Positions 12,025 to 28,201 of a stretch of DNA of 28,627 nucleotides are shown in pieces. The stretch is from the IMG/VR virus record IMGVR_UViG_3300037054_000174, positions 1-28,627 of that record. The stretch is one strand, 5' to 3'. How positions within the stretch are numbered: the stretch's first letter is position 1; every line of letters begins with the position of its first letter. A program made the translations under genes and the position numbers. Below the pieces are notes generated by a model. That model ran no database searches. It saw only the letters and a list, made by a program, of their open reading frames with translations, and was not told where the DNA came from. The stretch is from a virus.

Positions 12025-12912
12025 ATGAAACGCGATCTCTATGCCGATGTCACCGCGCGCATTTTGTCCGAATTGGAAAAAGGCGCGTTACCCTGGGTGA
12101 AGCCGTGGCGTTCTACGCCAGGCATGAATCATCCTCACAATGCCGGAACGGGCCGCCCCTATAGCGGCTGCAATGTAATTCTGCTTTGGATCGCGGCCGA
12201 TCAAGGCTGGCCGACGCCGCGATTCCTGACCTTCAAACAAGCACTCGATCTTGGCGGCCACGTCCGCAAGGGCGAACATGGCACTAAGGTCTATTTCGTG
12301 AAACGCATGAACGTGCGCGACACGACCGTTTCTGAGACCGACGAAGAGTCCACCCGCAGTTTCACCATGATGCGGGAATTCACCGTGTTCAATGTCGCGC
12401 AATGCGACGAACTACCAGAGAAAATCTTAAAGCCAGCGACCAAACCGCCGATCAATCCCGATGAACGGGACGCCACTATCGACGAATTCCTGCAAGCGAG
12501 CGGCGCCGATCTTCGCGAGGGCCACGGCGAAGCCTACTATCGCCCGAGCGACGATTACGTTTCGCTGCCCGCGTTCGGGGCGTTCAAGAACGCCGATCAT
12601 TTTTATGCGACGGCGTTTCATGAGCTGGGCCATTGGACCGGGCACAAATCGCGACTCGACCGCGATCTCAAGAACCGCTTCGGCGATCGTCAATACGCCG
12701 CCGAGGAATTGATTGCCGAATTATGTGCGGCGTTTATCTGCGCTGAATTCGGATTGAACAATGAATTGCGCCATGCTGGCTATATCGATCACTGGATCGC
12801 GCTGTTGAAACACGACAACCGCGCCTTCATGACCGCTGCCAGCAAGGCGCAAGCCGCCGCCGATCATCTGCGCAACCGTGTGCTTGCCGAATCGCAAGCC
12901 GAAGCCGCGTAG
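12025..12912 (+). CDS. ardC: ArdC-like antirestriction protein
   Basis: 295 residues, the usual ArdC length. The N-terminal ssDNA-binding domain (about 1-130) has the family opening RDLYADVTARILSELEKGALPWVKPW, the GRPYSGCN turn and LGGHVRKGEHGTKVYFVKR. The C-terminal metallopeptidase-like domain carries HELGHW (199-204), an HExxH zinc motif, with EELIAELCAAF (227-237) as the likely third ligand region. ArdC proteins of conjugative plasmids protect incoming DNA from host restriction. Here the gene is second in an operon of small genes and ParB-like proteins, driven by a leader of the TTCGCAG type, which suggests a plasmid-derived module taken up by the phage. Confidence 0.92.
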   Translation: MKRDLYADVTARILSELEKGALPWVKPWRSTPGMNHPHNAGTGRPYSGCNVILLWIAADQGWPTPRFLTFKQALDLGGHVRKGEHGTKVYFVKRMNVRDTTVSETDEESTRSFTMMREFTVFNVAQCDELPEKILKPATKPPINPDERDATIDEFLQASGADLREGHGEAYYRPSDDYVSLPAFGAFKNADHFYATAFHELGHWTGHKSRLDRDLKNRFGDRQYAAEELIAELCAAFICAEFGLNNELRHAGYIDHWIALLKHDNRAFMTAASKAQAAADHLRNRVLAESQAEAA

Positions 12913-13014: not shown

Positions 13015-14709
13015 ATGAAGACTCCACAAACCACAACGCATCTGCCGATCTCGCAATTGCGGATCGACGACAAGATCAACGTCCGAAAGATCGGGCGCGG
13101 CGCTGATCCTGAATTCATTGCCTCGATCAAGGCCCACGGCATCCAGCAACCGCTGATCGTGCGCCCCAACGGCAAGGGCCATGTCGTCATTGCCGGCGGC
13201 AAGCGGCTCGAAGCCGCGCAATGGCTCGTTAAGGACGGCGAATGGGCGGAAGACGCGCCCATTCCTGTCAACGTGGTGAACGTGACAGACGCCGAGGCTC
13301 GGGAAATCTCCCTTGTCGAAAACGTCGTGCGCCAAGCCATGCACCCGGTCGATGAATACCGCGCGTTCGCGGCACTCAACGCCGACAAGAGCGAGCCGCT
13401 CGACGTGGATGCGATCGCCGCCCGCTTTGGCGTTGCTCGCAAGCTGGTCGAACAGCGTCTTGCGCTCGGCGCACTCGACGAAACGATCCTCACCGCCTGG
13501 CATAAGGGCGACATCGATGCAGAGATCGCGCAAGCGTTCACGCTCTGCCCGAGCAAGAAGGATCAGACCCGCATCTATGCCAAACTCACGCGCGGCGAAA
13601 ATCGGTTCATCAATCCCTATCGCGTCAAACAGGAATTGAAGATCGACGAGAATAATGTTGGCCGATATCTCAATGTGATCGGCGTCGAAGCCTATGAGGC
13701 GCGCGGCGGAAAAGTGACGCGGGATCTGTTTGGTTCAGATCACGTCGTTTCTGATCCGGCGCTCGTCAAGACGATGGTCGACGAAAAACTGGCCGAGACC
13801 TGCAAGGAGCTCGTCGAGAAAGGCGGCTGGGCGTGGGCCGTGACCGAACTCCCCCATGATCGTTATCGTTATAGGGAATTGCAAAGCCAGTTCAAGCCGA
13901 CGCCTGACGAAAAGAAACAACTCGCCAAATTCGAAGCCGATGGCGAGAACGAAAATATCGACACGGATGCGAACGAGGCGGCATCCGAAGCCTATGACCG
14001 ATTGAAGGGCGACATTCTAGCCCGTTCGATCACGGCGAAACAGCGCGCCAAGGCGGGCTGTTATGTCGGCATCGCGAACGACGGCACATTGTCGATCGCG
14101 ATGGGATTGATCACCCCGAAATTCGGCAAGAACGGCAAGCCGGTTGATCAATTCGAAAACGACGGCGACAAGCGGGCGGCAGCGTCGATTGCCAAAGGCA
14201 AGCAAACGCGCAAGACAACACTGACGAAAGCCCTGGTCGACCGTCTCAAGGAGCAACGCGAAACGGCGATCAAAACCGCACTCGTCGCTCATCCGCATGG
14301 CACCCCGCTCGCCATTATGCTGGCGGGAATCATCGCGGCTCAGATCAACCCGGGACGCTGGAACGCGGCACCGGATCAGATCAAGAGCAAGTTCGACGCC
14401 ATCATTGACGGCATCGCGCCGAAGGTGATGAACGCCGCGATGCGAAAGACTTTCGACGCCAAGGGCTATTTCGAGGGCGCCGGCAAGACGTTCTGTCTCG
14501 CCGCCATCACCGAAGCCGTCAATGCCGACGAGGCCCGCAAGGTCTCGAAAGGCAAGAAGGGCGAGATCGCGAAATTCGCCCTGATCAATGTCGGCAAGAC
14601 CGGCTGGCTGCCGAAAGAACTGCGCACGTCGCACTATGACGGGCCAACCGGCAAAAAGACTGCGCCGAAAAAGACCGTCAAGGCCAAGGCGAAAGGCAAG
14701 CGCTCGTAA
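13015..14709 (+). CDS. ParB/RepB/Spo0J-like protein, large
   Basis: 564 residues. The N-terminal ParB domain (about 10-115) has ISQLRIDDKINVRKIG, IKAHGIQQPLIVRPNG, HVVIAGGKRLEAAQWL (the ParB nucleotide-binding box, here with GGKR in place of the usual GxRR) and LVENVVRQAMHPVDEYRAF. A helix-turn-helix region follows (IAARFGVARKLVEQRLALGAL). The remaining 350 residues are typical of long plasmid ParB-like proteins found near ardC; they include an acidic linker (GENENIDTDANEAASEAYDRL) and end in a lysine-rich tail. ParB proteins are CTP-dependent DNA clamps in segregation; this long class has no proven function. No ParA gene is nearby. It ends at a clear terminator. Confidence 0.88.
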   Translation: MKTPQTTTHLPISQLRIDDKINVRKIGRGADPEFIASIKAHGIQQPLIVRPNGKGHVVIAGGKRLEAAQWLVKDGEWAEDAPIPVNVVNVTDAEAREISLVENVVRQAMHPVDEYRAFAALNADKSEPLDVDAIAARFGVARKLVEQRLALGALDETILTAWHKGDIDAEIAQAFTLCPSKKDQTRIYAKLTRGENRFINPYRVKQELKIDENNVGRYLNVIGVEAYEARGGKVTRDLFGSDHVVSDPALVKTMVDEKLAETCKELVEKGGWAWAVTELPHDRYRYRELQSQFKPTPDEKKQLAKFEADGENENIDTDANEAASEAYDRLKGDILARSITAKQRAKAGCYVGIANDGTLSIAMGLITPKFGKNGKPVDQFENDGDKRAAASIAKGKQTRKTTLTKALVDRLKEQRETAIKTALVAHPHGTPLAIMLAGIIAAQINPGRWNAAPDQIKSKFDAIIDGIAPKVMNAAMRKTFDAKGYFEGAGKTFCLAAITEAVNADEARKVSKGKKGEIAKFALINVGKTGWLPKELRTSHYDGPTGKKTAPKKTVKAKAKGKRS

Positions 14710-15950: not shown

Positions 15951-16208
15951 GTGACCCCACAACAATTCGATCTGTTCACGCCGCCCGTCATCGAACGCCG
16001 TGCGGAAATCCCCGCCGGTGCCGTGTTCATGTACGCGGGCCGCGCGCTGCGCGTCTATCGCGTCTTCGGCTCTGTCGCTGGCGACGTGGTGATCGTCGAA
16101 GAACTTGCCTCGTTCGGCAGGTCTCTCACCGGTCAATACGGCATCTGGAGTGTTGAAGCCGTGTCACGCGCTCTTGCTGGAAGGGAGATCGTATCATGGC
16201 GGGTATGA
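15951..16208 (+). CDS. Small protein with possible beta-clamp-binding motif
   Basis: 85 residues from a GTG 5 bases after AAGGAGA. The first residues read MTPQQFDLFTPP; QFDLF fits the bacterial sliding-clamp-binding consensus (QLxLF/QxDLF type). The rest (AGAVFMYAGRALRVYRVFGSVAGDVVIVEEL) looks like a small beta barrel. The stop overlaps the start of the second ParB-like gene by 13 bases, so the two are translated together. Clamp binding is inference from a five-residue motif. Confidence 0.65.
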   Translation: MTPQQFDLFTPPVIERRAEIPAGAVFMYAGRALRVYRVFGSVAGDVVIVEELASFGRSLTGQYGIWSVEAVSRALAGREIVSWRV

Positions 16209-17068
16209 TCCCACTCTCACTGATCACACGAAACCCGAAACAGCCGCGCGAGACGTTTCCGCAGGAACATATCGAACGGCTGGCGGCATCAATTCAGAAG
16301 CGCGGGTTGATCCAGCCGATCACGCTGCGAGCAATCAAACGCGGCAAATTCCGCTTCGAAATTGTCGCGGGCGAATGCCGTTTCCGCGCGCATCAATATC
16401 TCGAGGCGAAAACCATTCGCGCCGAGATCGTCAAGGTCGATGACGCGGAAATGCAATTGCGCGCTATCGTCGAAAATCTGCAGCGCCAGGACATGAACCC
16501 GATCGAGGAAGCCATGGCGTTTCAGGCGTTGCTCGATCAGGGCTATTCGATCAATCGCGTGGTTGACGAGCTCGGGCTCAAAAGTAGTGCCATCGTCACG
16601 CAACGTCTGACGCTGCTCAATCTCGCGGCTGACATTCAAAAGCTCGTCGCAAGCGGCAATCTCCCCGTAACGATGGCGTGGGGTATCGCGCAGGTCTCGA
16701 AGGAACGGCAATCGCAACTGGTGCGCGACATATCGTCGGGCAAATTGCGTACTGCCGAACAGGTCAAACACGCCGGCATCGCCTTGCGTGAGGCGGAAGA
16801 TCAGTTCGACGCCTTTGCGTCTGCACCAAAGGCGTCAACGAAAGACCTGGCCGCATTGTCGCGGCTTGAAGCCAAGATCATATCGATCGTCGATATGGTC
16901 GCCGCCGGATTTCAGAACGGCGAATGTATCGCGGCGCAACGCGTCTCGTCAGATCGTGTGAAGAAAATGGCGGACCAACTTGTGCTTATCCGCAAGCATG
17001 TGCTGCAGATGGAGCATGATCTGCGGCGCGTGGCGACTCAAACCGAAATTCGTTTCGAGGCCGCGTAG
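16196..17068 (+). CDS. ParB/Spo0J-like protein, second copy
   Basis: 290 residues, close to chromosomal or plasmid ParB length. The N-terminal domain has IPLSLITRNPKQPRETF, LAASIQKRGLIQPITLRAI, FEIVAGECRFRAHQYLE (GECRFRA, the CTP-binding box) and IVENLQRQDMNPIEEAMAFQALL. The HTH region is YSINRVVDELGLKSSAIVTQRLTLLNL, and SGNLPVTMAWGIAQVSKERQ follows. The C-terminal helical part (about 215-290) replaces the usual short dimer domain. It is much closer to canonical ParB than the protein encoded at 13015. There is no adjacent parA; the only ParA-like gene in the window is in the head operon. It could load on phage DNA for partition or act as a transcription regulator. Confidence 0.88.
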   Translation: MAGMIPLSLITRNPKQPRETFPQEHIERLAASIQKRGLIQPITLRAIKRGKFRFEIVAGECRFRAHQYLEAKTIRAEIVKVDDAEMQLRAIVENLQRQDMNPIEEAMAFQALLDQGYSINRVVDELGLKSSAIVTQRLTLLNLAADIQKLVASGNLPVTMAWGIAQVSKERQSQLVRDISSGKLRTAEQVKHAGIALREAEDQFDAFASAPKASTKDLAALSRLEAKIISIVDMVAAGFQNGECIAAQRVSSDRVKKMADQLVLIRKHVLQMEHDLRRVATQTEIRFEAA

Positions 17069-17099: not shown

Positions 17100-17471
17100 A
17101 TGAACGCCGTTCAACTTCGCAAACCTGCCCTGACAGTGCGACAGCCCTATGCCTCGCTGATCATCGCAGGTCTCAAGCCCATCGAGAACCGTACATGGGC
17201 CACGACCTATCGCGGCCCATTGTTGATTCACGCTGCGGTCAAACTGCACGATCATTCCGTCGTTGAGATCGAACGACGCTATGGCGTGAAAATCGATTCC
17301 GTCGCGCTGCAGTTCGGCGGCATCATCGGTCGCGTCGAGCTCGTCGACGTGGTGACGTCTCATTCGTCGCGTTGGTTCACCGGGCCATTCGGCTGGGTGT
17401 TGACATCGCCCGTTTGGTTGCCATTCCGTTCGATGCGCGGCGCGCAAACGTTGTTCGAGGCCGGTCAATAA
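17100..17471 (+). CDS. ASCH-domain protein
   Basis: 123 residues; AGGAG lies about 9 bases before the ATG. The opening KPALTVRQPYASLIIAGLKPIENRTW and YRGPLLIHAAVK are the diagnostic ASCH motifs (QPYxxLIxxGxKxxExR, RGPLLIH), and the pattern IIGRVELVDVV plus WVL completes the barrel. ASCH domains relate to PUA and EVE domains and are proposed to bind RNA or modified bases; one family member hydrolyses N4-acetylcytidine. It is last in the rightward operon and its stop overlaps the convergent gene by 7 bases. In a phage with predicted base modification it might read or edit a modified base, which is inference. Confidence 0.9.
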   Translation: MNAVQLRKPALTVRQPYASLIIAGLKPIENRTWATTYRGPLLIHAAVKLHDHSVVEIERRYGVKIDSVALQFGGIIGRVELVDVVTSHSSRWFTGPFGWVLTSPVWLPFRSMRGAQTLFEAGQ

Positions 17472-17743
17472 TCGAGCGAAAGTCCTACACCGACGACATC
17501 ACGGCCCCGCATGTTTCGCGGGGCCGTTTTTGTTTGTGCGCGGGCAATCGCCGCGGCCTGGGCGAGATCGACCGAGGGAAATTCCCCGATCCGAACGCCG
17601 CCAATCGAGGCCTGATATTCCAAGCCGATCTTCCCGAACGCGCAATGCGAACGCACTGTCTGCCGCACGAGCAATCGCCGGCCGGCGCAATCGGCATAAA
17701 ACGACGCGCGGCATGCTTCGATTTTTGTCCACGAGATCGTCAT
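17465..17743 (-). CDS. Small unknown protein coupled to ABC-GNAT gene
   Basis: 92 residues. The ATG overlaps the stop of the ABC-GNAT gene (ATGA), a strong sign of coupled translation. The sequence starts MTISWTKIEACRASFYADCAGRRLLVRQT and has a GKIGLEYQASIGGVRIGEF beta-rich middle and an AQAAAIARAQTK helix. I recognise no family. Its 3' part carries the rightward terminator hairpin (17501-17527) in antisense, and its end overlaps the ASCH gene, so the tail may be constrained by RNA structure. It may be an accessory factor of the predicted base-modification enzyme. Confidence 0.65.
   Translation of the reverse strand: MTISWTKIEACRASFYADCAGRRLLVRQTVRSHCAFGKIGLEYQASIGGVRIGEFPSVDLAQAAAIARAQTKTAPRNMRGRDVVGVGLSLDY
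17501..17531 (+). terminator. Strong rho-independent terminator of rightward operon
   Basis: Perfect 10-bp stem ACGGCCCCGC / GCGGGGCCGT with a 7-base loop, followed by TTTTTGTTTG. It ends the rightward operon 30 bases after the ASCH gene and lies inside the coding region of the opposing 92-residue gene. Confidence 0.9.
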
Positions 17744-18906
17744 GCTGCGACCTTGTCGTCGCCAGTGATCAAAGCATTACCACCCGCGCGCGCGATGGCG
17801 TCGCCGCGATATTCAAACACCGCACAGGGCCGCGATCCCATATTCCATTTCTTCCCGTCGTGTTCGCCGTCTTGCGTCCGGTTGGCGTTTTTCAGGCCGG
17901 ACGTTTCACCGAGCGACGGCGAGAACACCCCGGGTTTCTTTTTCAGAACCCATCGCGGCGACCGATCAAACGACCGCACGAGCGAGGGATGCGCGGGATA
18001 AGTCCGGAGTCGTTTGCCGGCCGATTTGTAGGCGGCGCCGAGCGTATCGGACAGGATCATCGCGAGGCCTAGGCCCTGATAGTCGGGCAGCGTCACCAGC
18101 CGCGAAATTCCCTTCACGTCATCGACCTTGGGATGCGGTCTGTGCAATACGCCGGCGAACGACGCCGGATAGCCCTCGACGAACATCACGAAACACGCCG
18201 CCGATTTGTGCAGCTCATTCGTCAGATAATGAAACGGCGCGAATAGTTTCCACGCCGCATGATCGACTCGCGCAATCTCGACATGGAGATCGGGTCGTCG
18301 TCGAAGTGACCTCCATTGGAAAGTCATCGTTGCAGGCTCCAGCATCCAATCGGGCTGGAGCCATTCGACCACGTCGTAGTGACAGGTCACAGCAACGAAT
18401 TTCTTTCCGCTTTTGCGAACGTGTTTCTGAACCGCCTGACAACCGATATGGGCGACCTGCCGATCGACGACAGACGTGAATTCGTCGACCATGATCAGAT
18501 CATCGGCCTCGAGGAGCGCGCGGGCCAACTCGACGCGAAATTTCTCACCCGTCGACAGAACACCGAACGGCTTCATCCAACTTGGAATCGTATTAAACCC
18601 GACAGCCGAACAAATCTCCGCGATCTGCGCGATGGTGTATTTCTTATCGAAATCATCGATGACCGATTTGGCGGACCAAGTGAATTTCTTTTCGGCGCCG
18701 AACAATTGCCGCGACACCGAGGACTTGCCAGCGCCGGATGGCCCGACGATCAATCCCAAATTCCAATCGCGTTCATCGATCGGCAAATCGCCTTTCCAGT
18801 GATGCGAGAGTTTTTCCTGCGCGGGCACGTCGAACATACCGGACAGCTGCTTGACGCGCGGCGTGCGGTCCAGTGCCGTCTCGACTATGAAATCAACGCT
18901 TCGCAC
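17740..18906 (-). CDS. ABC ATPase fused to Mom-like GNAT domain (COG2401-like)
   Basis: 388 residues from a GTG at 18906 (AAGGG upstream); the open frame reaches 19131 but that part overlaps another gene and is Arg-rich noise. The ABC half has GPSGAGKS (Walker A, 55-62), an LSTGE signature (117-121), LIMVDEF (Walker B, 137-143) and the H-loop His176 (VTCHYD). The C-terminal half (about 215-325) has WKLFAPFHYLTNEL, SRLVTLPDYQGLGLA (acyl-CoA loop of GNAT enzymes) and SPRWVLKK, a pattern shared with the Mom family. Mu Mom converts adenine to a carbamoylmethyl form, which blocks restriction. ABC-GNAT fusions of this kind are known but uncharacterised. Neighbours are a broken ParB-tail-like gene and a coupled small gene. 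Confidence 0.85.
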   Translation of the reverse strand: MRSVDFIVETALDRTPRVKQLSGMFDVPAQEKLSHHWKGDLPIDERDWNLGLIVGPSGAGKSSVSRQLFGAEKKFTWSAKSVIDDFDKKYTIAQIAEICSAVGFNTIPSWMKPFGVLSTGEKFRVELARALLEADDLIMVDEFTSVVDRQVAHIGCQAVQKHVRKSGKKFVAVTCHYDVVEWLQPDWMLEPATMTFQWRSLRRRPDLHVEIARVDHAAWKLFAPFHYLTNELHKSAACFVMFVEGYPASFAGVLHRPHPKVDDVKGISRLVTLPDYQGLGLAMILSDTLGAAYKSAGKRLRTYPAHPSLVRSFDRSPRWVLKKKPGVFSPSLGETSGLKNANRTQDGEHDGKKWNMGSRPCAVFEYRGDAIARAGGNALITGDDKVAA

Positions 18907-19191
18907 TTGAGCCCTTCCTTTTCCAATTTTTCCAGAAGCTCGCCCTGATGCGTTTCGTCTGAACAGCGCACCACGATTGAATACGAGAGACCGCCCAATT
19001 GCGGCCCCGCATCGTCCTCGTCGCCTTCGTCGTCGCCGGGCAGAAACTTGATCAATTCCTCTTCCGAGAAACCGAGGCTCGCGAGATCGCCGCCGGCGAT
19101 GGCCCATGTCTCGATCTGATGCGCGGGCCATTTCGCCTTCGCATCATCGGCCTTGGCCTTCGGAAGATCGCCCCCCCCCCTTTCGGCCCAT
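18885..19191 (-). pseudogene. ParB-tail-like small gene, frame broken at a ten-G run
   Basis: From an ATG at 19191 (G-rich ribosome site just upstream) the frame reads MGRKGGG and then hits a ten-base G run on the minus strand (plus 19171-19180). In the present frame it stops after about 15 codons. Removing one G gives an open frame of about 101 codons to a TAG at 18885: DLPKAKADDAKAKWPAHQIETW, DLASLGFSEEELIKFL, an acidic linker and LSYSIVVRCSDETHQGELLEKLEKEG. The last pieces resemble the C-terminus of long phage ParB-like proteins, while the N-terminal nuclease domain is absent. The gene overlaps the ABC-GNAT start by 22 bases. It may be a pseudogene, a phase-variable gene, a frameshifted gene or a sequencing error. 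Confidence 0.6.
19171..19180 (-). repeat. Ten-base G homopolymer near a start codon
   Basis: The run reads C10 on the plus strand and G10 on the minus strand, 10 codons or less downstream of the ATG at 19191. Runs this long are prone to slipped-strand length change, and a loss of one base (or gain of two) would restore the reading frame of the gene it interrupts. Confidence 0.8.
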
Positions 19192-25213: not shown

Positions 25214-25876
25214 CTAATCCTCGCCGGGCCCCATGCCATCTCCACCATTTTCCTTTCGCCAACCCTCATCGAATCTCGCTCTCCGTGTGTCTCCAAACGG
25301 GAAAGGATTTTCGATGACTGCCTTATTGTCGCGCGCATATTGGCGACCAAGTTCATGGGCGCCAGCGTCGTCGACATCGGGCACTGGCGGTTTTTCCCTT
25401 GACGAAAAACCTGACGGCGGCGCTTTGGGCTCGCTCTTGCGTTCGACGAATGGCTCGACATGCACAGCGCCCGTCTTGTCGCGAAACAAACGGATCGGCT
25501 CTCCGCCCATTCGTAGGATGATGTCGCCTTCCTGTGGCGCGATCTCCTTAAACTTTTCGATCAGCTTTTCACGCCCGGCCGCGTCCTCAAACATCGCGCC
25601 GAGCAGCCGAAACATCGGCGGCTCTTCATCCATTCCAATTGCATGCAAATAGCTGTCACGGATCGCTTCGGCTTCCTGCCGATCGTGCGGCTTCATCTCG
25701 CGCACTTTCACCAGATAGCGGATGCCGGGCGGCGAAAACCCATCCGCCTTTGCCGCCGCCATGATCGCGCTTTCCTGCTCGGACAATTCCTTTTTCTGAG
25801 ATCGCAATCGCTCGACCTCAGTCACGATGCCGAGAAGCTTGGTGCCTTCGATGGTATTCTTTCCGATGCTCATCAT
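25214..25876 (-). CDS. GapR-like (DUF2312) domain fused to RMF-like domain
   Basis: 220 residues from the ATG at 25876 (GGAG 5 bases upstream); a TTG at 25897 would add 7 residues. Residues about 10-83 (LLGIVTEVERLRSQKKELSEQESAIMAAAKADGFSPPGIRYLVKVREMKPHDRQEAEAI) match GapR-like DNA-binding proteins of alphaproteobacteria, which bind overtwisted DNA ahead of forks and polymerases. Residues about 172-213 (AGAHELGRQYARDNKAVIENPFPFGDTRRARFDEGWRK) match the ribosome-modulation-factor-like motif (Gly, Asn-Pro-Phe, Gly-Trp). The middle is acidic and proline-rich. Both halves are assigned by eye; the fusion is unusual to me. Confidence 0.8.
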   Translation of the reverse strand: MMSIGKNTIEGTKLLGIVTEVERLRSQKKELSEQESAIMAAAKADGFSPPGIRYLVKVREMKPHDRQEAEAIRDSYLHAIGMDEEPPMFRLLGAMFEDAAGREKLIEKFKEIAPQEGDIILRMGGEPIRLFRDKTGAVHVEPFVERKSEPKAPPSGFSSREKPPVPDVDDAGAHELGRQYARDNKAVIENPFPFGDTRRARFDEGWRKENGGDGMGPGED

Positions 25877-25962
25877 GGTTGCTCCGATTGCCGACAAATT
25901 CTCACCATGCGCGAAAACTGATTCGCGCGTTGAATTCGAAAACTCACAGGGAGACGCTTACT

Positions 25963-27120
25963 TTACCGCTGCAGGTACGCAGGAATTCGAGACCCTTCGG
26001 CTTCACTCTCAAGCTGATGAGCGTCAAGAAGTTCAGCGTTGTGCTTTTGCTCTGGTGTTTTCGGCTCGATCACGACGCCATCGGCATCGTGCTCAGCCGG
26101 AGATTCCTTGCCCCACGTTTTCCAGTCGTCATCGCCGGCGCGCGCGAACAATTCGATGCCAGGCAGATCGGGAAACAATCCCTTGATGATCGTCTTGAAG
26201 ATGATGGGCTTCTTCGAATGTTCTTTGACCGGGCCATCGATGACGCTGTGCGCCTGAGTGCCTGGCAGTGGCGCCGGGATCTTGCCCTTGACGCCGACAA
26301 GCAGGAGCTCGTGCTTATTGCGGAACCAATAGCCAGTGCCGATGCGGTCCTTATTCCAGATGCAATGCGATTTGTATTCGAAGCCCCAGGCGTCCATGAC
26401 GTCGAGCGCGTCGCGCAGCATCGGTACTGTCGCCCAGAGGAACAGCACGCAATCACGCGCGGCGATCTTCGGCACGTCCATCGCCTTGATCGCGTCGACG
26501 GTCATCGTCGGGTAGTGATTGTCGGCAGCGCGATCCATGCCGGTGTCGAGGCTGTAAGGCTCGAAGGCCCACGGCGGGTCGGCATAGATGACGTTGAACG
26601 TGCCGGCGGCTTTGAGCGAGCCTTCGGCGCCCGCAAGGGCGGCCATGCGTTGTTTACGGCGTTCGGCCTTGTCTTCGGTTTTGGCGAGATCGAGCGAGAC
26701 GCGACCGGAGGCGCGCTGGATTTCCGCCCGCTTGCGAACGACCATTGCCTCGAAAGCACGCTCCGCTATGCCGCCAACCTTCTGTGATCGAGCGGACAGC
26801 CGCTTATCGACGCCAATGTCGTCCAGCGTCAGGCGGGATAATGGTTCGGATGGCGTACCATTATCGGACTTTGTTTTCAGGGTCTTAGGACGGCCAGATA
26901 TCAGCCGCCCTGCGTCTTTTTCAGCCGAAAGCATGATGCCGAGACGGCGCTCAGCCCGCAGTCGAAGCTCAGCGGCGTCGGCCTCGAGCTGCACGTCATT
27001 GGCCATGCGCGCATAGGCCCGCAGGGCTTCCGCCTTGTCGTGGATGTCCTTAACCTCATCGATCGACCGGCATTCAGCCAGGGCGCTCCGGGCGGCTTCG
27101 TAGAGGGCAAGCTGCGTCAT
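25963..27120 (-). CDS. MT-A70-family adenine methyltransferase
   Basis: 385 residues. The catalytic motif DPPW (181-184) is in FNVIYADPPWAFEPYS, followed by DRAADNHYPTMTVDAIKAM, CVLFLWATVPMLRDALDVMDAWGFEYKSH and a typical SAM-binding end. The N-terminal 160 residues are helical (AEALRAYARMANDVQLEADAAELRLRAERRLG...) and are common to phage/plasmid MT-A70 proteins. It should methylate adenine N6 in DNA; target sequence unknown. No cognate restriction enzyme is present, so protection or a regulatory mark is likely. It overlaps the upstream gene as ATGA, and a 7-bp hairpin (25909-25928) lies in the gap downstream. Confidence 0.93.
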   Translation of the reverse strand: MTQLALYEAARSALAECRSIDEVKDIHDKAEALRAYARMANDVQLEADAAELRLRAERRLGIMLSAEKDAGRLISGRPKTLKTKSDNGTPSEPLSRLTLDDIGVDKRLSARSQKVGGIAERAFEAMVVRKRAEIQRASGRVSLDLAKTEDKAERRKQRMAALAGAEGSLKAAGTFNVIYADPPWAFEPYSLDTGMDRAADNHYPTMTVDAIKAMDVPKIAARDCVLFLWATVPMLRDALDVMDAWGFEYKSHCIWNKDRIGTGYWFRNKHELLLVGVKGKIPAPLPGTQAHSVIDGPVKEHSKKPIIFKTIIKGLFPDLPGIELFARAGDDDWKTWGKESPAEHDADGVVIEPKTPEQKHNAELLDAHQLESEAEGSRIPAYLQR

Positions 27121-27374
27121 GCCGCCATCCTCGAAAGCAGTTGACGCAGTTCAAGCGCCGGTGATTCAGGAAATCCATCGACGGGCCGCGCCTGACAAAA
27201 TAGTGGGTTGTCGTCGGCGATCTCGTCGCCCCAGATCCGCTCTATTTCAGCGGGAATGACGCCGATAAATCCCATCTTGCGCATGACGGATGCGATGTCC
27301 GCCGTGCATCCGCGCATGAAGTAGGAGCAGCGGATTAGATAGATACGTCGCTCGCGGGTTTGTGAAGGCGTCAT
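27117..27374 (-). CDS. Small helical early protein, 85 residues
   Basis: Both ends overlap neighbours as ATGA. The core (YLIRCSYFMRGCTADIASVMRKMGFIGVIPAEIERIWGDE) has a helix-turn-helix look, with Ile/Gly turn residues, but I cannot assign a family. It could be a small DNA-binding regulator acting with its neighbours. The C-terminus (SPALELRQLLSRM) is an amphipathic helix. Confidence 0.6.
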   Translation of the reverse strand: MTPSQTRERRIYLIRCSYFMRGCTADIASVMRKMGFIGVIPAEIERIWGDEIADDNPLFCQARPVDGFPESPALELRQLLSRMAA

Positions 27375-28201
27375 GCGGCCGCTCGCGATAATTGTTTGTC
27401 GAGATACTTTGCGATCAGAATTCCAGCCGCACCGCCTTTACCGTCAGACGACGCCTGTTTGATCCGACCAGCTTCACTATAGATCGACGTAAACGGCATC
27501 GCTTGGACAAGCTTCAAAAGCTTGCGCGATTCCGACCATTCCGGAGTGGCCTCGAGCGCAAAACAAAATCCCCTGATAAAGACAGGATTGATCCAGCCGG
27601 CGCCGCCGGCCCGCGCGCACGTCAGCGCGATTTCTGTAAGATCATCGCCGAAGCGCTTGACAGCCGAATAGATCGTTCGCACGGCAGTCGTATCGCCAAT
27701 CTCCATTGCGTCAGTAGAAATCGGATTTCTTAGAATCCTAACGCCGCTGCGTTTGCAGATATTTTCGATCTTTCGCGCTTCCTGGTCGCCACCGGCGACG
27801 GCTGCGCGATGAACCTGCAATGGAGACACGCCGGTCACAACCGCATTAATGGCGACGAACGCCATTGCCTGTCGCGCTTCATCGGCGTCAACGATCATGC
27901 ATGGTATTTTATCGATGCCGCACAGCATCGCTGCGGTTGTGCGATGCTGGCCGTTAATGATGGCAAATCGGTCGCAGCCGATCGGTGCAATCATCGGCGG
28001 CTCGAAACAAGCCCAATTAAAGTGCTCAGCAATGCGCTGGACAGTTTTTCGGCTCTGTTTCGTCATATCGCGCTGATAGGTTTGATCGATCATCAGCATA
28101 TCGATATCGACCCACGCGAATTTAGGCCGTTCACCGAGAGCTGCTGGCGGCTCGATCTTCGAAAATTCTGTGATATCAATTTTTCGAAGGACTGCTCTCA
28201 C
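27371..28201 (-). CDS. ParB-fold protein of the early operon
   Basis: 276 residues. The ParB-like core is FAWVDIDMLMIDQTYQRDMTKQSRKTVQRIAEHF, with FEPPMIAPIGCDRFAIINGQHRTTAAMLCGIDKIPCMIV (NGQHR in the place of the nucleotide-binding box) and VAINAVVTGVSPLQVHRAAV. The NGQHRTTAA form is typical of ParB/Srx-like proteins (including DUF6551-type) in phages, which may act as NTPases or DNA-binding regulators. It differs clearly from the two rightward-operon ParB-like proteins. The rest is helical, ending in basic residues. Overlaps both neighbours as ATGA. Confidence 0.82.
   Translation of the reverse strand: MRAVLRKIDITEFSKIEPPAALGERPKFAWVDIDMLMIDQTYQRDMTKQSRKTVQRIAEHFNWACFEPPMIAPIGCDRFAIINGQHRTTAAMLCGIDKIPCMIVDADEARQAMAFVAINAVVTGVSPLQVHRAAVAGGDQEARKIENICKRSGVRILRNPISTDAMEIGDTTAVRTIYSAVKRFGDDLTEIALTCARAGGAGWINPVFIRGFCFALEATPEWSESRKLLKLVQAMPFTSIYSEAGRIKQASSDGKGGAAGILIAKYLDKQLSRAAA

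Follow-up and report, generated by a model that had tools for sequence, protein, structure and literature searches.

A viral ABC ATPase-GNAT fusion with a truncated ParB-like partner, from a family that trades places with Mom and probably modifies phage DNA

The window, by which we mean the entire 28,627-base virus record analyzed here, encodes terminase, portal, S49 protease and capsid proteins and, at 17740..18906 on the minus strand, a 388-aa fusion of an ABC ATPase (approximately residues 1-200) with a GNAT acyltransferase (approximately residues 205-388), delineated using Pfam, PHROG and an alignment of relatives. Its start was inferred to be the GTG at 18906 because aligned relatives have an ATG at the same place. 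The fusion, which had been proposed from the sequence alone, is far beyond chance and was confirmed by matches to Pfam ABC_tran (E=1.5e-8, above the cut-off) and to PHROG_11143, a family annotated as function unknown (5e-95, residues 17-324). Pfam Acetyltransf_1 fell just short of its cut-off for the window protein (E=0.0025), but each of the family's 44 GNAT halves matched it (best, 4.4e-11). The GNAT half carries a canonical CoA motif (QGLGLA), every catalytic residue is present in the alignment of relatives and the codon signal is good. AF2 models had a pLDDT of 83.7 for the full-length protein and 87 for the GNAT half (pTM, 0.82), and Foldseek searches with these models recovered only generic ABC domains and only ordinary acyl-CoA GNATs, respectively. 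PADLOC returned nothing beyond weak generic ATPase matches.

Immediately upstream lies what is either a remnant or a short form of a ParB-like partner gene (18885..19191, minus strand), identified by a tail profile and tblastn and comprising a linker (GFSEEEL) and a 33-aa tail that scores 47.5 bits against the profile. Its stop (18885) overlaps the ABC-GNAT start by 22 bases, and the SD-like AGGAAGG of ABC-GNAT sits inside it. This frame has the strongest coding signal among the frames tested, and codons matching the C-terminal part of ParB-like proteins begin at about 19170 and continue as far as the stop. An ATG at 19191, preceded by an SD-like AGGGGGG, is out of frame with the tail because the intervening homopolymer (19171..19180; C on the plus strand, read as G on the minus strand) is 10 bases long, while 9 would restore the frame. 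The break could be real or could stem from misassembly; in a search for copies with other run lengths, GACTCATGGGCCGAAAGG had no match in viral contigs and no close relatives of the tail were found. The ParB_N domain is also missing near ABC-GNAT: with the complete ParB protein of a close relative (L009) as a tblastn query, only residues 122-185 matched, at 49% identity. The original prediction of a broken ParB-tail gene therefore holds, and in place of a coupled gene with both domains the window retains the tail only, out of frame. Three further ParB_N-type genes are found in the window (13015-14709 and 16196-17068 on the plus strand and 27371-28201 on the minus strand), one of them near an MT-A70 gene, and one of these might replace the lost domain.

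Downstream, a 92-aa open reading frame (17465..17743, minus strand) overlaps the ABC-GNAT stop by ATGA and has codon usage compatible with coding. It also overlaps a strong plus-strand intrinsic terminator (17501..17527; 10-bp stem with T-rich tail) and lacks relatives among the phages, viral contigs and family loci searched, so that of the small coupled gene originally proposed the open, overlapping frame stands and support from any relative is lacking. The terminator belongs to an ASCH-domain gene of the ASC-1/TRIP4 type (17100..17471, plus strand; Pfam ASCH, 1.1e-5), which is convergent to ABC-GNAT. Elsewhere in the window, Pfam bore out the MT-A70 (25963-27120) and ArdC (12025-12912) genes noted earlier. 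A GapR-like DNA-binding protein (25214-25897, minus strand), of a kind characteristic of Alphaproteobacteria, gives a hint of the host group, and a NusG-like phage antiterminator (20328-20921, minus strand) adjoins a replication-initiator-like gene.

The ABC-GNAT protein belongs to a large family, with tblastn relatives in 58 deposited phages and pattern-plus-tblastn scans revealing at least 596 viral contigs and at least 430 contigs from bacterial genomes; the best 80 of the latter come largely from Planctomycetes, Nonomuraea and Endozoicomonas. Across 177 full-length members, the Walker A G/K, signature L-S-G, Walker B D-E, D-loop D and H-loop H are invariant; all are present in the window protein, upholding the claim that its ABC half is catalytically complete. 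GNAT residues H226/Y227, R269, P274 and Q277-G278-x-G280 are 94-100% conserved in the same set, and this near-invariance of catalytic residues argues that both halves are under selection. Fusion of the two domains is seen in 183 of 187 loci, whereas they occupy separate genes in Lactococcus P335, Streptococcus MismyG and Tenacibaculum phage pT24, the last of which encodes a pair homologous to the window protein (tblastn, 6e-50 over 90%). With its domain pair, intact ABC motifs and GNAT CoA motif, the window protein has the hallmarks of the GNAT-ABC ATPase family.

The GNAT half had been likened to Mu Mom on the basis of family residues, and this part of the original prediction failed. Pfam Mom (PF25680), which recognizes Mu Mom itself at 2.4e-75, gives no hit with the window protein at thresholds up to E=1, and comparison of a GNAT profile (44 sequences) with a Mom profile (28 sequences) by hhalign gave a probability of 0.35%. 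The Mom invariants HYS, ELxR and FAD (SFAD) are missing from the GNAT half, leaving only HY in common (as HYL, which 50 aligned hhalign columns place on the HYS of Mom), and the acyl-CoA motif QGxG[AG] occurs in ABC-GNAT and not in Mom. Nor did the proposed structural comparison recover a relationship, with the Mom structure (8bv8, identified by sequence) falling outside the top 50 fold matches of the GNAT model. A true but divergent Mom, making Mom's own product (modified N6-adenine), would account for the HY motif at the start of both folds, for the weak Pfam Mom matches of 2 of 44 family members (best E=0.0033) and for the replacement of ABC-GNAT by Mom at the same loci (below), but given the Pfam, hhalign, motif and fold results we consider it improbable. 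Membership of the Mom family was accordingly rejected, leaving ABC-GNAT as a proposed analogue of Mu Mom in function, from a different enzyme family.

We then examined gene neighborhoods. Among 137 non-redundant ABC-GNAT loci with room upstream, a gene encoding ParB_N plus the 33-aa tail directly adjoins ABC-GNAT in 126, usually with a 22-nt overlap. ParB_N occurs without the tail in two loci, neither is directly upstream in six, and the tail occurs without ParB_N in three: the window, Porphyromonas phage 008a (42 aa) and a Planctomycete locus, L124 (54 aa). In the last two, the stand-alone tail protein is coupled to ABC-GNAT, at L029:3831-3959 (Porphyromonas, 42 aa; annotated only as 'acr candidate') and at about L124:2960-3122 (54 aa). 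Since these two loci also have the tail only, a missing ParB_N does not disqualify the window protein from the family.

The loss of ParB_N from the partner gene does imply either that its ABC-GNAT may work without this domain or that the module is decaying. That the module is non-functional in this particular phage, which would be compatible with a DNA-modification role for the family, has a substantial minority chance in our estimation: the domain is gone and the tail is out of frame at the 10-G run, yet ABC-GNAT is intact, with its own start, SD-like sequence, coding signal and full catalytic complement, similar tail-only partners exist in Porphyromonas and L124, and the indel in the G run may be an assembly error.

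The tail itself contains too little conserved sequence for a profile scan, and we instead surveyed ParB_N. Homologous ParB_N genes precede Mom in 14 of 84 loci, nearly all of them divergent members, with the remaining Mom loci mostly close relatives of Mu. Of 80 viral ParB_N genes sampled independently, one was followed by ABC-GNAT and carried the tail, 8 were followed by Mom and 71 were in other settings, many of them fused to a DNA methyltransferase. Because the tail is found in none of the 79 ParB_N genes that do not precede ABC-GNAT and in none of the 84 Mom loci, it is tied to ABC-GNAT. Many of the sampled genes (L274-L353) end in a methyltransferase, a zinc-ribbon-like or another C-terminal module. 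Judged from these arrangements, ParB_N is a module common to phage DNA-modifying enzymes, and viral ParB_N proteins look like a general adaptor with exchangeable C-termini.

Pairs of related phages and a ParB_N tree show that Mom and ABC-GNAT repeatedly replace each other behind the ParB gene. The order gp73/gp69-ParB-[ABC-GNAT or Mom]-HTH-clamp is common to Arthrobacter phages EastWest and StevieBAY; identity is 46-83% for the neighbors in this order and 30-83% for flanking genes. Between Porphyromonas phages 008a and 012a, the DNA matches at 88% identity for 3.1 kb, breaks off where ABC-GNAT stands in one and Mom in the other, and matches again on the far side. A tree of 98 ParB_N domains shows 8 switches of label between Mom and ABC-GNAT, at least 5 of them forced by well-supported branches, and rejects a single clade for Mom (p=3e-45), although single forks are weak because the alignment has only 125 columns. 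The two enzymes are not strictly exclusive, since Aeromonas phage PX29 (GU396103.1/NC_023688.1) carries a gene for each at separate places. Given this exchange of places, the earlier description of a Mom-like enzyme survives with respect to role, having failed with respect to family.

These neighborhoods also bear on whether the enzyme acts on protein, with ABC-GNAT acetylating a host or phage target such as RNA polymerase or the ribosome under regulation by its ABC half. Phages do encode protein acetylators, such as Rac of phiKMV, the nearest solved folds of the GNAT half are ordinary protein or amine GNATs, and the best sequence match of the ABC half is EttA, a ribosome-bound ABC protein. 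However, the EttA match is generic, and linkage to a ParB_N module whose other partners are DNA methyltransferases and Mom, together with repeated swapping with Mom, makes a protein target unlikely.

The ASCH gene adjacent to ABC-GNAT recurs across the family. ASCH domains are PUA-like and bind nucleic acids. Within 1.5 kb downstream of ABC-GNAT, a search of 218 kb found them at 27 of 146 non-redundant loci, 24 of them convergent, compared with 3 matches in 996 kb of remaining flanks, an approximately 40-fold enrichment; none was found near Mom in 80 loci with 3-kb flanks. One ASCH protein, YqfB, is an RNA-nucleoside amidohydrolase that strips acyl groups from N4-acylcytidine using a Thr-Lys-Glu catalytic triad (PMC6972931), and other ASCH domains are predicted readers of modified bases (PMC11037411). 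The best structure matches of the window ASCH were ASC-1 ASCH domains, with the YqfB structure not among the matches, and comparison with the YqfB triad by eye indicated that the Lys is kept and the Thr position is Glu (GLKPIENR). With an ASC-1-type ASCH in the window, both reader and eraser roles are possible. Because the family of this neighbor includes YqfB, ABC-GNAT might modify tRNA or mRNA rather than DNA, which we consider very improbable given the ASC-1-type matches and a ParB_N context shared with DNA methyltransferases and Mom.

Together, the ParB_N context and the swaps with Mom make modification of phage DNA, as originally suggested, the best-supported role. Selection on both halves, the ASCH enrichment and an independent published prediction of base acylation (PMC7824862) point the same way. 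Specifically, we propose with a probability of roughly 0.6 that ABC-GNAT is an ATP-driven, CoA-dependent acyltransferase acting on an exocyclic base amine of the phage's own DNA and thereby protecting it from restriction. What was observed is the gene content, conservation, neighborhoods and swaps; the DNA substrate, product, tail docking, ATP step and protection follow by inference. In intact relatives, the coupled ParB-like protein would bind DNA through ParB_N, and its C-terminal tail (beta-alpha-beta as read from sequence) would dock on the ABC half; ATP-driven ABC dimerization might then clamp or open the DNA so that the GNAT half reaches a base and moves an acyl group from CoA onto its amine, with the resulting mark blocking restriction. 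The window copy may act with the tail alone, an arrangement seen in a few relatives, or with a different ParB of the phage, or it may be decaying. Speaking against DNA acylation are fold matches mostly to acyl-CoA GNATs acting on proteins or small amines, the six of 137 loci with neither ParB_N nor tail and the broken partner in the window. More tentatively, the acylation may differ from that of Mom, with the exchangeable ParB_N adaptor made specific for ABC-GNAT by its tail and ASCH reading or removing the mark.

In a Gordonia phage (L008:1826-2473), a metagenomic virus (L025:1482-2207) and a Porphyromonas phage (L029:5086-5559), the gene immediately after ABC-GNAT encodes a formyltransferase fold (HPSLLPLHRGR motif). 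Its product could formylate the mark; with only 3 of 188 loci carrying it, we rejected it as a general part of the system.

If the more tentative adaptor model holds, a single ParB adaptor would serve methyltransferase, Mom or ABC-acyltransferase effectors in a modular phage system. Confirmation of the predicted DNA modification would explain the need for an ABC motor in an acyltransferase, in an enzyme spread over hundreds of phages and prophages in hosts of many phyla. The swaps with Mom, the ABC-GNAT-specific tail and the ASCH link provide concrete handles with which to test a modification that has so far been predicted only.

The domain pair and its role have been proposed before. An earlier prediction of a GNAT-ABC ATPase DNA-modification family was reportedly made by Iyer et al. 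in 2013. To our knowledge no member has been characterized biochemically, and the literature searched yielded no experimental account of ABC-GNAT function. Nor did it yield a description of the tail domain or its confinement to ABC-GNAT, of the repeated exchange with Mom, or of the link to ASCH, although the 2013 work may cover some of these. COG2401, an ABC-type ATPase with a predicted acetyltransferase, presumably has the same domain order as the window protein, a likeness we draw from its description only. More recently, Aravind's group (Iyer et al. 2021) predicted that the GNAT-ABC ATPase family acyl-modifies DNA bases and named pT24 as an example, in a passage that does not mention ParB (PMC7824862). 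The neighborhood evidence described above supports that prediction.

The module in the window is thus a partly degraded further member of a predicted family. Its ABC-GNAT shares the domain pair and predicted base acylation with that family (pT24; PHROG_11143), but the halves occupy two genes in pT24 and are fused in the window, beside a truncated ParB-tail partner. Mu Mom (PF25680, PDB 8bv8) resembles ABC-GNAT in its GNAT fold, HY motif and slot behind homologous ParB_N genes, and differs from it in lacking both an ABC domain and the QGxG CoA motif, in its invariant residues and in its ParB partner, which has no tail. Phage ParB_N-DNA methyltransferase fusions, in turn, share a homologous ParB_N domain with the partner of ABC-GNAT but carry the methyltransferase in the same polypeptide and have no tail.
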